Notes: generated by a model not told the origin, from the letters alone. Counted from the first letter of the stretch, positions 31,976 through 38,863 are shown. The stretch: 64,000 nucleotides of DNA from Spiroplasma chrysopicola DF-1 (GCF_000400935.1 NC_021280.1:558001-622000); one strand, 5' to 3'. Numbers and translations are program-made.

Positions 31976-32641
31976 TTAAATTAAATGATATAAACAATAT
32001 AATCAATGTTTTTTAATCTGATGATTTTTCTTATTACTATGGATTGTTAAAATCTTATGTAAAGAAAAAATTGTTTCATCAGCTAAATAATCTGAACTAA
32101 GTTCATCATATTTTTCGATATGCTTAATTATATCACTTCCTGTTAATTCTTGGGTATTTAAAATATGAATATTACTATATTTTGTTAAGTCTTGAAAGGA
32201 TGTTTGCTCAGAGTATTTTAATAATTGTAAATTAATAACACAAGTTGCTAAAAATTGTTTTTGCTGTAAAAGTTCTAACACCTGATTAATAACAAATTGT
32301 TGGGTTACAATTGGGGAAGAAATATTTTGGTTGCCGTTACTTCAAACAGGATTTGTTAAAACAAATTCCCCCTCCAGCGAGATTATTTTGGCTTTAAAAA
32401 CATATAAATGTTTTCGTGTTAAGAGAATGCGGGGCAAATAATATGTTAATTTTGTTTTTTCATCATAAAACGCCACATTTTTAAAATATCAATAGTAATT
32501 AACGTTTTTTAAGTATTTTTTAACGACTTTATCTAAATCCTTATAATTTTCCGGTTTTAATTCAAGTTTTCAGGTTAATGGCGCTAATTTTAACGCTTGG
32601 CGACTCTGATTTACTTCTTTTTTTCAACGATATTTAGTCAT
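31976..32641 (-). CDS. Unknown protein, weakly NERD-like
   Basis: 221 residues, start ATG 32641 after AAGGAG, translated just ahead of nusB (12-base gap). No signal peptide or membrane segment. The centre (YYWYFKNVAFYDE..., LLTRKHLYVFKAKIISLEG, then NPVWSNGNQ) recalls the layout of NERD nuclease-related domains, but the usual ExK pair reads FKAK, so catalysis is doubtful. Basic N-terminus. The family call is inference; the gene itself is well supported. Confidence 0.7.
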
Positions 32642-32684: not shown

Positions 32685-33116
32685 TTAACGGTTTTTACGT
32701 TTCGTACGTTTTTGGCGATATTCTTCTTCTTCATTATTAATTAATTGCTCAAGCAAGTTTTTATTATATTGTTGTGTTAACTCTTTTGAATATGAAAGAA
32801 GATGATCATTTAAGCGAATATGAACTTCGTCAATAATTAACGGTTCAGGAGTTTCGTTTAAATCTAAGAGGTACAATTCATTAGTAAATAAATATAAAGA
32901 TTTATTATTTAACTTAATATTTTTTAATAAAACATATTCTTTACGATTTGCAATATCTGCCACTTGGTCTTCAAAATATATTCGGTAATACAAATAGTTA
33001 CTATTTTCATTACGTGAATTAAAAAATAACCTTTTTTTATGACTACGATCAATACAAATTAATGATTCATCTTTAAGACGGTAAACATGTCGACTTTTAA
33101 GTTCTAATTTTGGCAA
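32685..33116 (-). CDS. Small basic/acidic protein of unknown function
   Basis: 143 residues. The start is TTG 33116, supported by GAGGG seven bases upstream; no ATG fits. The first 95 residues alternate strands (HVYRLKDESLICIDR, YVLLKNIKLNNKSLYLFTNELYLLD), suggesting a small beta domain; the end is helical with an EEEEYRQKRTKRKNR charged tail. No membrane segment. It lies downstream of the Lys-Arg-Pro gene cluster, past a weak terminator. Confidence 0.7.
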   Translation of the reverse strand: MPKLELKSRHVYRLKDESLICIDRSHKKRLFFNSRNENSNYLYYRIYFEDQVADIANRKEYVLLKNIKLNNKSLYLFTNELYLLDLNETPEPLIIDEVHIRLNDHLLSYSKELTQQYNKNLLEQLINNEEEEYRQKRTKRKNR

Positions 33117-33182: not shown

Positions 33183-34778
33183 CTATTTTTTGTTTTCTTG
33201 TCGAAATTTATTTGCTAATTGAGTTTGTTCACGTAATAATTCAATTAATTGTTGACGAGTATCTTTAATTGTTTCTTGCAGAATTAATAACTTTTGAAAC
33301 TCTTTTTGTGAACGAACAAAGCCTTCCATATCAGCTCTAAATTCTGTATTTTTTAATAAATGGCGATTTAAAATCAATAATTCTAATTGTTGTTTGCGGT
33401 TTAATAATTTAACATATAATCGCAATAGGGTGTTGGCACGTTTATGGTTTTCAATAATATCAGAATTAAACAGCAATGATTTTGTTTGATTAATTGCTTG
33501 ATTAAAATCAGCTAACTCTTGTGAAATTTGGCGATTATAACCTTGTTCATATTGTTCTTGTACTGTTAATAAATAATTTAAAATTTGTTGTTCAAATGTT
33601 TCTTTTTTGTTTTTTGTAACATTTGGTCGCTTCTCAGCATCAAAAACATAGTTGTAATCTGTTTGCTTATAAATTTCAGCATCTGGTAATTCCATTTCTG
33701 AGATTTCCGCAATTAATTCTGTTTGTAGTGATCTTGTCATTTCACGTTGTGTTTCAAAATCACCTTCCTTAATCCCTAAAATTTGACGAAGATTTTTTAA
33801 CTGTTGTAATTCTAACAATTCTAGTTGATCTACTTTTGCTTTACTTTCTAGTCGTTTTAACATGTGTTCTTCTAATGTTAAGCGTTTTTGTTCTTTACGA
33901 ATTACTTTAACTGGTGTTGGTTTTTCAATTACTTCTGGTTTAGCAAAAAACTCATCAAATTCAATTTCAATTTTATGGTCTTTTATTAAATGGACTAAAA
34001 TTTCATCCTCTTTTTTTTCAATTTCAATTTTATCATCTGGTTCAATAATAAAATCAACAATTGATAAACCATTACGTTTAATTTGTGATAATTGTGTGGC
34101 AAGAACAGGACGATATTGACGTTGAATTTCGTCATTTTCCTTTTTCACTTCCCCTTTATTTTTGCTAGTAAAGTTAGTTTTTCACATTTCGTTATAGTTA
34201 CTATTAACCTCTTGTTTTCCTTGTCTTGCTAATTCAGTATTAAGGTCTTTTTCCGCTTGAACTGGTGGCTTAATTAAATTAGTTTCTAAGGTTTTCTTGT
34301 CAGTTTTTGGCTTAACAACAGATTTTATTTTTACTGGTTTTGGATTTAAATTTTCCTTTACTTTAGCAGTTTTTTCTAATAATTTAATAGTTTCATTAGC
34401 ACTAACTGTTGAAATAGTTTTAAGATTTTTTCCTGGCTTTTTTACTAATAAACCAAGTTTAGCTTCGGTTTTTTCTTTATAGTCATTTTGATAATCACGA
34501 TTAATAAATTGGCTCTTAGTACGGGCTTTTTCTCAATGTGAAGCATTATTCAAGCGAATTACACCTGGTTTTTTAGTACCAGCAACTTCATCATGGTATC
34601 TTTTTTGTAAAGTTTTAAATTCTTGACTATTTTTATCAAGTTTTCCTAATAAGGCTTTAATCGTTGTGGGAGTTAATTTTTTATCTACTAACTCACCAGG
34701 ATCACGATTAGGATCAATAATATTACCATAATTAATATTTTCTGTTAATAATTGATTACTATTTTTTTCTTTTGCCAT
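33183..34778 (-). CDS. Large charged coiled-coil protein with KRP motif (cluster gene A)
   Basis: 531 residues, cytoplasmic by composition (no membrane segment or signal). N-terminal 230 residues are Lys/Asn/Pro-rich and low in complexity, starting MAKEKNSNQ with GNIIDPNRDPGEL near residue 20. The centre carries Glu/Lys/Leu helices (RLTLEEHMLKRLESK, ELLELQQLKNLRQILG), then FDAEKRPNVTKN near residue 375, and a C-terminal helical region with repeated heptad-like Leu and Gln. The short D-x-x-K-R-P motif is shared with the two genes upstream. Start ATG 34778 after GAGGG. Function unknown; a structural or scaffold role is only a guess. Confidence 0.75.
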
Positions 34779-34809
34779 TTTTTTACCCTCTTTTTTTATT
34801 TACTATTAC

Positions 34810-34838
34810 ATTATATAAAATTTCTTACATTTTTTAAA
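34810..34838 (-). promoter_or_regulatory. Promoter of cluster gene A
   Basis: On the minus strand TTTAAA (34833-34838) and TATAAT (34810-34815) are 17 bases apart, about 30 bases before the gene A start. A terminator lies further upstream, so gene A needs its own promoter. Confidence 0.5.
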
Positions 34839-34918
34839 TAGTTTTTACTAAAATGTTGATTTTTTTTATAAATTATCTATAATATTATATTTATTTTATT
34901 TACCCTTAAAAATAGGGA

Positions 34919-34948
34919 TAAAAAAATAATAATCAAAGTGATTATTAT
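34919..34948 (-). terminator. Terminator overlapping the end of cluster gene B
   Basis: Perfect 10-bp stem ATAATAATCA / TGATTATTAT with an AAG loop (34926-34948), followed on the minus strand by seven T. It covers the gene B stop codon. Confidence 0.85.
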
Positions 34949-35550
34949 CATTTTGACCGCGGTCCTTTTTTATAAACTATTTTTTTAGTAAATAGTTTAC
35001 GTGGTTTTTTCACTTTCTTAACTTTTGGAAGCTTAACAACCGGGGGTTGGTGATACATTTCATATTCATCCATTAATGTCCGGGCAATTTGTTGCATAAA
35101 CATTGTGCCATATGATTGATCATCAACTGCGTTTTTCTTTTTTAAAGCCATTGTTTCTTGGTTCAATTGTTCAGAATCTTGGTTAATTTTAACATCAGCA
35201 TTTAAATCCTTTTTTGTAATTCGCGGCAATTTTTGCTTTTGATTTAAAGTTGCTAAATACTCTTCCCGCAACTTTAGTTCTTGGAGTCTAATTTGCTGTA
35301 AATCTTTTAATTTTAAGTGCTTTTTTATTAAAGATTGATTTGTTCCAGTTAATTTTGCTTGCTCAAGTTGAAGTAGTAATTGGCGCTGTAATTCAGCATC
35401 TTGTTCTTTTGACCACAGTTCTTTTTCTTTCGCTCATTGTAAGGCAACATCTGGTCGTTTTGTTGCATCAATTCCACTTGAGGTAATCACTTCATCAAAG
35501 TACTTATTAATTAATTTTTGGATTTCCATCTCATTTTGTTTCGTGCTCAT
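34945..35550 (-). CDS. Charged helical protein with KRP motif (cluster gene B)
   Basis: 201 residues, no membrane segment. Residues about 23-32 read GIDATKRPDVA, the motif shared with genes A and C. A long Leu/Gln/Lys helix follows (LQRQLLLQLEQAKLTG, LKDLQQIRLQELKLREEYL), then a Lys-rich tail ending KKIVYKKGPRSKW, pI clearly basic. Start ATG 35550 after a GAGGTGA-type ribosome site (GAGATAATG context). The last residue is Trp by TGA, immediately before TAA. The 39-base gap to gene C suggests one transcript. No family recognised. Confidence 0.75.
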
Positions 35551-35589
35551 TATCTCACCTCATTAATCATAACTTGTTTAATAGTTGAG

Positions 35590-37431
35590 TTATTTTTTTT
35601 GTGTTGATTCATCAATTAAAATCCCATTAACAACCTTTTTTCCTTCCTTTTGATATTTATCAATTAAAATTTTAGGTAACGGTTTTGGTTTAACACTTTT
35701 ATTTTTTAAATGTTTTTCGTGACGAGCAGTTTTTTTCAAATTCTTAGCTATTAATTTTTGTTTATGTTCCTGTTTATTAACCTCTTTGAGATATTGGCGT
35801 TCAATTTCGCGAATTTCTTTTGGATGATAACCTTCATAAGTATAAATATTACTTGTTAAATCCTTTTCTAAATCTGGTCGTTTTTCTAAATTAAAATAGT
35901 CGATTTGATAGTCTGGTAATTCTTTTTGTAAAAAGATTTCTTCATTATTATCATTTTTACTATTTTTTTTTGTTTTTTCTAAGCTGGATTTTGCTAACTG
36001 TTTTATATTATTTTGGTCTTGGTCTTTTCTAAGATTATTACTTGTTTCACCATATTTTAATTTCTTTAAATTTGGTCGTTTTTTTGGATCAACAATTGAA
36101 ATATATTCTTCTTCGATAATTTTATTTTCTTGCACCATAACCGGAGGTTCTGCTTTAATATCATTCCTATTCAATGATGACATTGCTTTTTGGTGTTGGT
36201 CTTTTTTAAGTTTTTCTTCATTTGAAATTACCAAAGATTTAATTGCTAAAAGTTCATTATCATGTAATTTTGTGTTATCAGGATTTGATTTAATAACTGT
36301 TTTAATTGCCGTTGATTCAGCAATATAATTTGAAATAACCTTGCCGTCAAAAATCCGTTTTTTTCCAAGAGTATTTTTAAAAGCTCTCCCACTAATTTGC
36401 TTTTGTTTTGCTAAAATCTCTTGCGTTGTAACTCGTTTACGGCGTGGGGCTGGTTCTGCTCGTTTTTTTTGCGATGAACCAATGAATTCTTTTCACTGTT
36501 GTGGGGATAAATCACGACCAGCAATTAATTTTAATTGTCCTGGTGATAAATTGAAGTTTTGACTAACAACACTAATTTTATTAAAATTTTCTTGCTCTTG
36601 TTCTTGATTATTTTCAACTTGTTGTTTTGCCTTTAGGTTAGTTCTTTCAAAACGAGCATTATTATATTGTGGCTTAACACCATCACGACGTTTTAATAGT
36701 TCAACTTGTGTTTTACTTAAACCAAATGTTTTTGATCGTAATTTAATTCGTTCATTAAATAAAACTAGTTCTTTATTTTCAGAACTATTATTAGAATCAT
36801 TTTCTAACATTTCATTAAAGAAATTTGTTCGCGATGCCTCATTAAAAGTAGATGATGATATCTCGTTTTTTGGTGATTTTTCATCTGATGATAAAAAATT
36901 TAAACTTTTAAAATATCCTGAACTATTTTTCTTTTTACCATTAGTACGGCTCTTTAATAATTCTAATTGTGTTTGACTTAATCCTTTATTCTTAGCGTTT
37001 AATTTGATTTTTTGGTTAAACATAAAAGCATTACTTTCCGTTGAACTAGTATTAGTAATTAATGATACTGGGGTTGGGTTAACTTTCTTAACTTGGGATG
37101 TAACATTTGCGGGCAATACTTTTTCGGGCTTTCGTGTTTTGCGCAAAGCTTTTGCTGGCGCTGTTTTAGTCTTAGGAATTGTTAGTTTTTCCCCCAAGAG
37201 ATTATTAACAAATTTTAGATATTCCGCTTGGTATTTTTGTGATAGATTTGTTGTTTTTCCTGAAATTTTGTCTGTTGCTTTCATTAAATTTTGATATTCT
37301 TGTGAGGATTTTCAGCTTTTAATTAAAATTTTTGACATTTCATCAACTTGATCTGGCAAGGCAAATTGTTTGTTTAATTCTGCTAACTTAATATCATCTG
37401 TTTTGCTTATCATTGCAACATTTTTTTTCAT
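35590..37431 (-). CDS. Large basic protein with KRP motifs and an internal LSxxQ repeat (cluster gene C)
   Basis: 613 residues, start ATG 37431 (weak GGGGTAAAC ribosome site). No membrane segment. Three related internal units are visible between residues about 130 and 310: FNQKIKLNAKNKGLSQTQLE, FNERIKLRSKTFGLSKTQVE (each followed by LLK.R) and NKISVVSQNFNLSPGQLKLI. Further on lie two KRP motifs, IVDPKKRPNLKK (about residue 435) and YFNLEKRPDLEK (about residue 505). The C-terminus is strongly basic. The LSxxQxELLxxR unit looks like a helix-turn-helix-sized binding repeat. Function unknown. Confidence 0.75.
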
Positions 37432-37637: not shown

Positions 37638-38863
37638 AAAAAATTAACATAATGAATATGTCAAGAAAAATAGACAATTAAAAAGTTACTTGAAGGAATG
37701 ATTTTCTGTATTGAACAGGACTCATTCCTTTTAATTTGGCTTGTGGTCTAAAATTATTGTAAAAATAGATATATTTAGGTAGATTTTCAATAATTCTCAT
37801 AAGAGTTTCCACGTCTGGACATTGAAATCGTAATTCCAAGATAATTGCATAATTTTTCATAATCAGAATTTGTATAATGAAAACCTTGATCTGATTGTAG
37901 AACTCAAGTTGATGGCTTTCCAGCTTTTACTCAAGAATTAATTATGTTTTTAAAGACAAATTCTTTTTCTAAATTATTACTGATTTGGTAGTCCAAAATT
38001 TCATTAGTATGAAAGTCTTTTACTATTGATAAAAAATAGGTTTTATCGCTTGTTAATAAATATATTATGTCTGTTCCTATTTTTTGATTAATATCTGTGG
38101 TTGAAAAATCTTGATTCATGATATTTTCATGTCTTTTGTTACCAGAAGATAATTTATAATTAAATTTTTTTATTCTAATAATTGATTTTAAATTCATATT
38201 TTTCATATATCTATAGACAATATGAGGTTTTAAATTTCAATTATATAGTTTATTAATAATTAGTGTTAACATATTATATCCATAAATTTTCTTAAAAGTT
38301 AGAAATAACGTTTTAACTATTTTTGCAATTGTATTATTCCATTTATTAAAAAGTTTCATTCCAGCATTAAATCATTTATAATAACCAGCTCTAGAAACAT
38401 TTAAAATTTTGCATAAATATTTAATTTTGTATTTTTTCTTTAAGGACCAAATCGTTTGAAATTTCTTCTTTTTCGATTTGGGCAAGGACTTTTTTACATC
38501 TTGAATCATTTCAATATACTCAATTAATTCTTTTTTTGTCATTAATTCAAAATTAAGATTTTTTGGACGCCCTGGTCGGCGAATTCCTTTAGATTGTAGA
38601 CCATTTCCTGGTTCTAACGCTTTTTCTCCACTAATTTTAACTGCCTTTTTTCAACGAGATAAAGTTGGTGTTGAAATTTCAAATTTTTTAATTGTTTTTG
38701 CTCAACCATTTTCTTTGTAATATTTTAAAATATTAAGTTTTTCGTTTTTTGTAAATCATTTTGTTCCCATAATAAAAGAATACCTTTCAATAAAATTATG
38801 ACACATAAGTAACTTTTTATGTGTCTAATTTATTTTAGGTATTCATAATTATGTTAATTTTTT
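37638..38863 (-). mobile_element. IS3-family insertion sequence (IS150-like)
   Basis: About 1.2 kb bounded by imperfect inverted ends. Both termini read inward AAAAAATTAACATAAT, then GAATA, a TAGACA-like block, and AAAAAGTTACT (left 37638-37690; right 38863 back to about 38808). It carries one transposase gene, now broken. It lies 11 bases beyond the symporter stop. No clear target-site duplication was found by eye, so the exact ends are uncertain by several bases. Confidence 0.75.
37678..38770 (-). pseudogene. IS3-family transposase, inactivated by an internal deletion and frameshift
   Basis: Starts at ATG 38770 (MGTKWFTKNEK). N-terminal helix-turn-helix (STPTLSRWKKAV), a second HTH-like region (YLCKILNVSRAGYYKWF), then the DDE integrase core with first Asp in IGTDIIYLL and second in QSDQGFHYT. 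After SMSRRGNSY the frame ends at 37775, and the remaining C-terminus (YFYNNFRPQAKLKGMSPVQYR) continues in another frame to 37678. The block between, which normally holds the catalytic Glu (SYDN..E.FF..LK), is missing. Intact relatives are single proteins of about 380 residues. Confidence 0.88.

Follow-up and report, generated by a model that had tools for sequence, protein, structure and literature searches.

A short KRP peptide recurs in otherwise unrelated Spiroplasma-specific proteins and is a candidate docking motif

The C-terminal conserved peptide of FtsZ binds FtsA, ZipA, SepF and other proteins, and the binding motif of the sliding clamp (DnaN) occurs in bacterial replication and repair proteins. 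Both systems offer a comparison for the KRP motif described here. In FtsZ, a short conserved peptide, placed within a disordered linker or at its end, is recognised by membrane-side partners. The direction is opposite, however, since one FtsZ peptide serves many partners, whereas many proteins share the one KRP peptide; moreover, the end peptide of Spiroplasma FtsZ (DDLPPFVRRSW) is unlike the KRP motif. In the DnaN case, many unrelated proteins carry one short peptide and all dock on one hub, but its QLxLF-type motif differs in sequence, and the KRP carriers include membrane proteins and no replication enzymes. A third comparison is the internal ribbon of Spiroplasma, composed of fibril and MreB1-5 (PMC5289999, PMC9582952), a cytoskeleton and hence a natural candidate for a common partner. 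How the helical, polarised, wall-less Spiroplasma cell is built and steered is an open question, and the linkers of fibril, MreB, FtsZ and the membrane are largely unknown.

We analysed a 64-kb stretch of the Spiroplasma chrysopicola chromosome (558,001-622,000), called the window below; feature positions are counted from its first letter. A preliminary description of this DNA had reported three adjacent genes for large charged proteins sharing a D-x-x-K-R-P motif. Reading frames were found at the positions it gave, on the minus strand, and they stay open only when TGA is read as Trp (code 4).

33183..34778, minus strand: gene A, 531 aa, Spiroplasma-specific
34945..35550, minus strand: gene B, 201 aa, helical, Spiroplasma-specific
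35590..37431, minus strand: gene C, 613 aa, net charge +48, Spiroplasma-specific

The genes are separated by 39 bp (C to B) and 166 bp (B to A). All three products are indeed charged, with K, E, Q, R, D and N making up 48-49% of residues; the word "large" suits A and C and does not suit B, at 201 aa. The proposed lack of recognisable domains was borne out: Pfam and NCBIfam gave no significant match for A, B or C, PHROGs gave none, and profile searches of the PDB with A and C were likewise negative. A fold search with the models of A and B, which are of low confidence, returned no meaningful match.

The KRP motifs were present as they had been quoted, namely FDAEKRPNVTK in A, GIDATKRPDVA in B, and IVDPKKRPNLKK and YFNLEKRPDLEK in C. 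Three LSxxQxELLxxR units, also reported earlier for C, were recovered as well.

33621..33641, minus strand: KRP motif of A (DAEKRPN), immediately ahead of the C-terminal helical region, pLDDT < 50
35449..35469, minus strand: KRP motif of B (DATKRPD), in a coil between two predicted helices
36070..36090, minus strand: first KRP motif of C (DPKKRPN), identical in all 8 intact orthologues that were aligned
35872..35892, minus strand: second KRP motif of C (NLEKRPD), degenerating to KKP or KTP in orthologues of the citri clade
36946..36981, minus strand: LSxxQxELLxxR unit 1 of C (LSQTQLELLKSR)
36685..36720, minus strand: LSxxQxELLxxR unit 2 of C (LSKTQVELLKRR)
36514..36549, minus strand: LSxxQxELLxxR unit 3 of C (LSPGQLKLIAGR)

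The LSxxQxELLxxR units number 3 in C against 0.0006 expected from shuffles, and 3 to 5 in its orthologues. The peptide IIDPNRDPGEL of A, which had been read as a degenerate copy of the motif, was rejected as such; it belongs to a separate conserved N-terminal block (YGxIIxxxRxxxEL..KK.TP) of the A orthologues. In the predicted structure of A, of low confidence, the N-terminal ~300 residues are mostly unstructured and the C-terminal part forms long, coiled-coil-like helices. The models, built from 6-9 sequences, place the motif of A in a stretch with pLDDT < 50 and that of B in a low-confidence coil between helices. Taken over its carriers, the motif reads as a hydrophobic or aromatic residue, D/N, two variable positions, K, R/K, P, N/D/T and then usually a hydrophobic residue.

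The motif turned out not to be specific to this locus, contrary to what the preliminary description had implied, and it also occurs in three proteins encoded elsewhere in the genome, X1, X2 and X3. Judged by sequence comparison, X1 and X3 are two further, unrelated genus-wide families that carry it. X1 (441 kb, 519 aa) has a long N-terminal part rich in lysine and asparagine, the motif MEWDITKRPNLG and, as recognised by eye from hydrophobic segments, a C-terminal membrane domain; it is present in 13 of the 60 family genomes, all of them in this genus and including G011. In the species inspected, the N-terminal region of X3 (506 kb, 324 aa, net charge -24) bears FDPAKRPTSI or a similar sequence, except that genome G007 reads KQP and G011 lacks the protein. 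In X2 (491 kb, 245 aa), observed only in S. chrysopicola and S. syrphidicola, the motif IDFAKRPNF sits close to the C-terminus. The VirB4-like ICE ATPase of G007 (L146:1493-4321; NF045975, E 3e-210) ends in a KRP tail (...NYDPSKRPNLTNK). Such a tail was rejected as a general trait of Spiroplasma conjugation ATPases, because four plasmid VirB4 homologues lack it.

Further carriers were found at a greater distance. Genome G048, taken as S. sabaudiense, encodes an in-frame DISKRPNL protein (MSYKKRLKNEEVDIDISKRPNLSL). It is one of just three strict matches in g9, another Spiroplasma genus, all in frame and all in disordered-looking ends of hypothetical proteins; the other two are orthologous proteins of ~295 aa from two relatives, which terminate in DLSKRPNL/I amid a run of several charged proteins of no known family. 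In two g9 genomes (L259 1-4672, L261 1-4800), a row of large charged uncharacterised proteins, one of them ending in DLSKRPNL/I, precedes trigger factor, and the first protein of this row has a conserved YDVSKQPSM, a possible KRP variant.

Relatives of A, B and C were detected in 13 of the 14 genomes of the genus, G011 having no detectable relative of any of them, and a search for A in the 60 family genomes found none outside the genus. A scan of genome contigs with C as the query returned no more than three named relatives. Conservation of the motif among orthologues was uneven in its contrast with the surroundings. The first motif of C ranked 1 of 758 seven-column windows across the 8 aligned orthologues (1.00 as against 0.46 in the flanks), and the motif of X1 ranked 3 of 630, its columns being 0.89 conserved as against 0.38 in the flanks. 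The window of X3 ranked 24 of 401. For A (78 of 572) and B (42 of 196), the motif stood little above the best other segments, in surroundings that are generally conserved. The expectation that a functional motif be kept among orthologues therefore held, most clearly for the invariant DPKKRPN of C. Broken copies of B, C or X1 occur in several citri-clade genomes, which indicates that the KRP system is dispensable there. One decayed copy, in G012, reads KCP. Contig C1 of the same genome holds the A/B/C cluster twice (~241-244 kb and 346-352 kb), with one broken member in each, C in the first and A in the second; in S. eriocheiris, gene A is interrupted and reads as two overlapping frames (L150 9572-11330).

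We consider it reasonably probable that the motif is a lineage-specific short linear docking peptide, carried by at least five otherwise unrelated Spiroplasma-specific families that would all bind one common partner. As is typical of docking motifs, the same peptide occurs in non-homologous proteins (A, B, C, X1 and X3), and it does so above chance and is kept among orthologues. This reading is favoured by the membrane anchoring of X1 and by the lack of homology between the families. Weighing against it are the modest conservation contrast in A and B, the degeneration of the second motif of C and the broken gene copies in the citri clade, and the negative comparison with the ribbon proteins described below. 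From these observations we infer protein binding and a single partner for all carriers. The motif would be displayed in mostly disordered parts of the carriers, each docking on the same partner. Two of the carriers would lie at or near the membrane, X1 through its C-terminal membrane domain and the VirB4-like ATPase with the motif as its C-terminal tail, while the remaining ones would be soluble. The combination of membrane-attached and soluble carriers implies a hub that would be reachable in the cytosol next to the membrane, and C, with its two motif copies, could cross-link hub units. The earlier suggestion that the shared motif reflects one common partner gained from X1, X2 and X3 and from the chance and conservation tests, and lost its confinement to the locus. 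The finding is real, and it is better supported than the preliminary description could show. A literature search for a short linear motif in Spiroplasma returned nothing relevant.

A different account would dispense with a separate hub: the KRP proteins might bind each other, for example through the helical C-terminal part of A, so that the motif drives self-assembly of a scaffold. The conserved order of the neighbours A, B and C and their long helical segments fit this account, as does the tendency of broken A/B/C members and broken X1 to share genomes (G001, G003, G007 and G008), although the co-breakage is confounded by the general decay of citri-clade genomes. Two genomes speak against it. 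G011 retains X1 with an intact motif, although none of A, B, C and X3 is detectable there; in S. sabaudiense the motif occurs while A and X1 are both missing. These patterns imply that none of A, B, C and X3 can be an obligate receptor, and we regard self-assembly as unlikely.

To about the same degree, we doubt that the motif is an element for processing, degradation, or nucleic-acid or membrane binding, in which the basic K-R-P beside the acidic D would have a role other than protein docking. As such an element might be, the motif is charged and likely to be exposed, and it frequently lies close to a terminus. It is more specific than a basic patch, however, with D fixed three residues before K, a fixed P, and N/D/T following. 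Its position also varies, from N-terminal in X3 through internal in A, B, C and X1 to C-terminal in X2, which is ill-suited to one common cleavage outcome.

Common descent was considered next to these: a single ancestral KRP protein could have been duplicated and have diverged so extremely that the motif is the last remnant, with no need for a common partner today. Homology is readily lost in lineage-specific, charged, low-complexity proteins such as these, and a real shared module was in fact detected, since X3 has a helical-looking segment of 60-90 aa in common with two small families, Y1 and Y2 (E 3e-6 and 2e-8 in profile comparison). Y1 adjoins rlmH and the ribosomal operon, and Y2 proteins have 90-92 aa; the loci carrying the module are L185-L197 for X3, L235-L243 for Y1 and L244-L248 for Y2. 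The LSxxQ units of C look like a part of this module (LTxxQRLRLLKxAxDP) and were rejected as copies of it, because an iterated profile found the module not significantly present in A or C. Against common descent, when profiles of A, B, C, X1 and X3 were searched against one another, nothing outside the motif reached significance at the sensitivity of these searches. In the profile-profile comparisons of X3 with A, X3 with C, and C with X1, the best local alignment was exactly the motif, located without supervision, with scores that are individually weak. The families differ in topology and in the position of the motif, and keeping just these residues would itself imply selection on binding. 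We therefore regard this account as rather improbable, somewhat more so than the two above.

The enrichment of the motif was measured against shuffled and reversed controls. The pattern [DN]..KRP[ND][ILVFM] occurs 4 times in A, B and C together, against a mean of 0.0012 in shuffles of the three sequences, and among the main reading frames of the window [ND]..KRP was confined to A, B and C. Searched as DNA across the S. chrysopicola genome, D..KRP[ND] gave 6 matches and the reversed control gave 0. All but one of these lie in frame, in A, B, C, X1 and X2, and the remaining one is antisense to dnaK; the composition predicts 0.16 in-frame matches per S. chrysopicola genome, as against the 5 proteins observed. 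In the 14 genomes of the GTDB genus, 57 coding-pattern matches stood against 4 in the reversed control, whereas the 46 genomes from other genera of the family gave 14 matches against 16 in the control, which is the chance level. Assignment by position places 47 of the 57 in Spiroplasma-specific families or the VirB4 tail: 12 in A, 8 in B, 12 in the first and 2 in the second motif of C, 10 in X1, 2 in X2 and 1 in the VirB4-like tail. The other ten comprise DNWKRPN (7), KSP (2) and a sugar-metabolism enzyme (1). DNWKRPN was rejected as a carrier, being an antisense frame of dnaK where checked, and NLLKRPNI, found in eleven genomes, was set aside as unrelated, since by eye it belongs to MnmG-like housekeeping proteins. 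Coincidence, by chance or composition, among disordered proteins rich in lysine is thus extremely improbable and, for practical purposes, refuted by the control searches: A, B and C are rich in K, D and N, but the motif far exceeds its shuffled and reversed controls and is kept among A and B orthologues at about 41-48% identity.

Returning to the docking reading, we compared the candidate partners. The detergent-insoluble internal structure of S. eriocheiris has yielded sixteen identified proteins (PMC5289999). When gene numbers were used for an approximate mapping (ftsZ, SPE_0752, ~822 kb; A/B/C, 577-581 kb; X1, 752 kb; X3, 672 kb), no KRP gene matched any of these ribbon proteins, in a list obtained by a gel method that sees abundant proteins only. 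Fibril seems disfavoured as the partner, since S. sabaudiense has a KRP protein though its fibril gene is reported to be probably disrupted (PMC7609405). Our guess is a membrane-side cytoskeletal or division component, on the MreB or FtsZ/FtsA side rather than fibril.

FtsZ itself contains one weaker [DN]..KRP match. Among five species (loci L094:1599-2816 of G000, L268, L270, L274 and L278), its acidic linker is variable and RKRPSYF is invariant. A second element, NANRRINAW[RK]EHV, lies amid the variable acidic stretches before DDLPPFVRRSW. RKRPSYF resembles the motif in having KRP followed by a small polar and an aromatic residue, and differs in that no aspartate stands at the third position ahead of K. 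By our composition-based estimate, a bare KRP should turn up tens of times in each proteome, and for both reasons we treat the relatedness of RKRPSYF as a lead only. A speculative extension, which we think doubtful, is an adaptor network in which one membrane-near hub reads the KRP box on lineage-specific scaffolds, FtsZ joins through RKRPSYF, and the VirB4 ATPase acquired its tail to reach the hub. If true, such a network would organise the shape, polarity or division of the wall-less Spiroplasma cell. A nine-residue bait common to several lineage-specific proteins, one of them membrane-anchored, offers a direct handle on the partner, and the KRP motif provides a defining feature for several families annotated as "hypothetical protein".

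The surroundings of the cluster were also inspected. Starting 66 bp after A, two genes of no known family are followed by nusB, xseA and xseB.

32685..33116, minus strand: 143-aa neighbour downstream of A, TTG start, no known family, without the KRP motif, within the surrounding gene order
31976..32641, minus strand: 221-aa neighbour downstream of A, no known family, between A and nusB/xseA

In S. eriocheiris, open reading frames of like size occupy the place of the 143- and 221-aa genes after the cluster; by eye, the second is clearly related. Directly upstream of C lies an IS3-type transposase gene (rve domain; window 37678-38806), the frame of which seems to be disrupted towards the 3' end. 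The neighbourhood of X1 contains a longer, open copy of the IS3-type element (L108 1972-3199).
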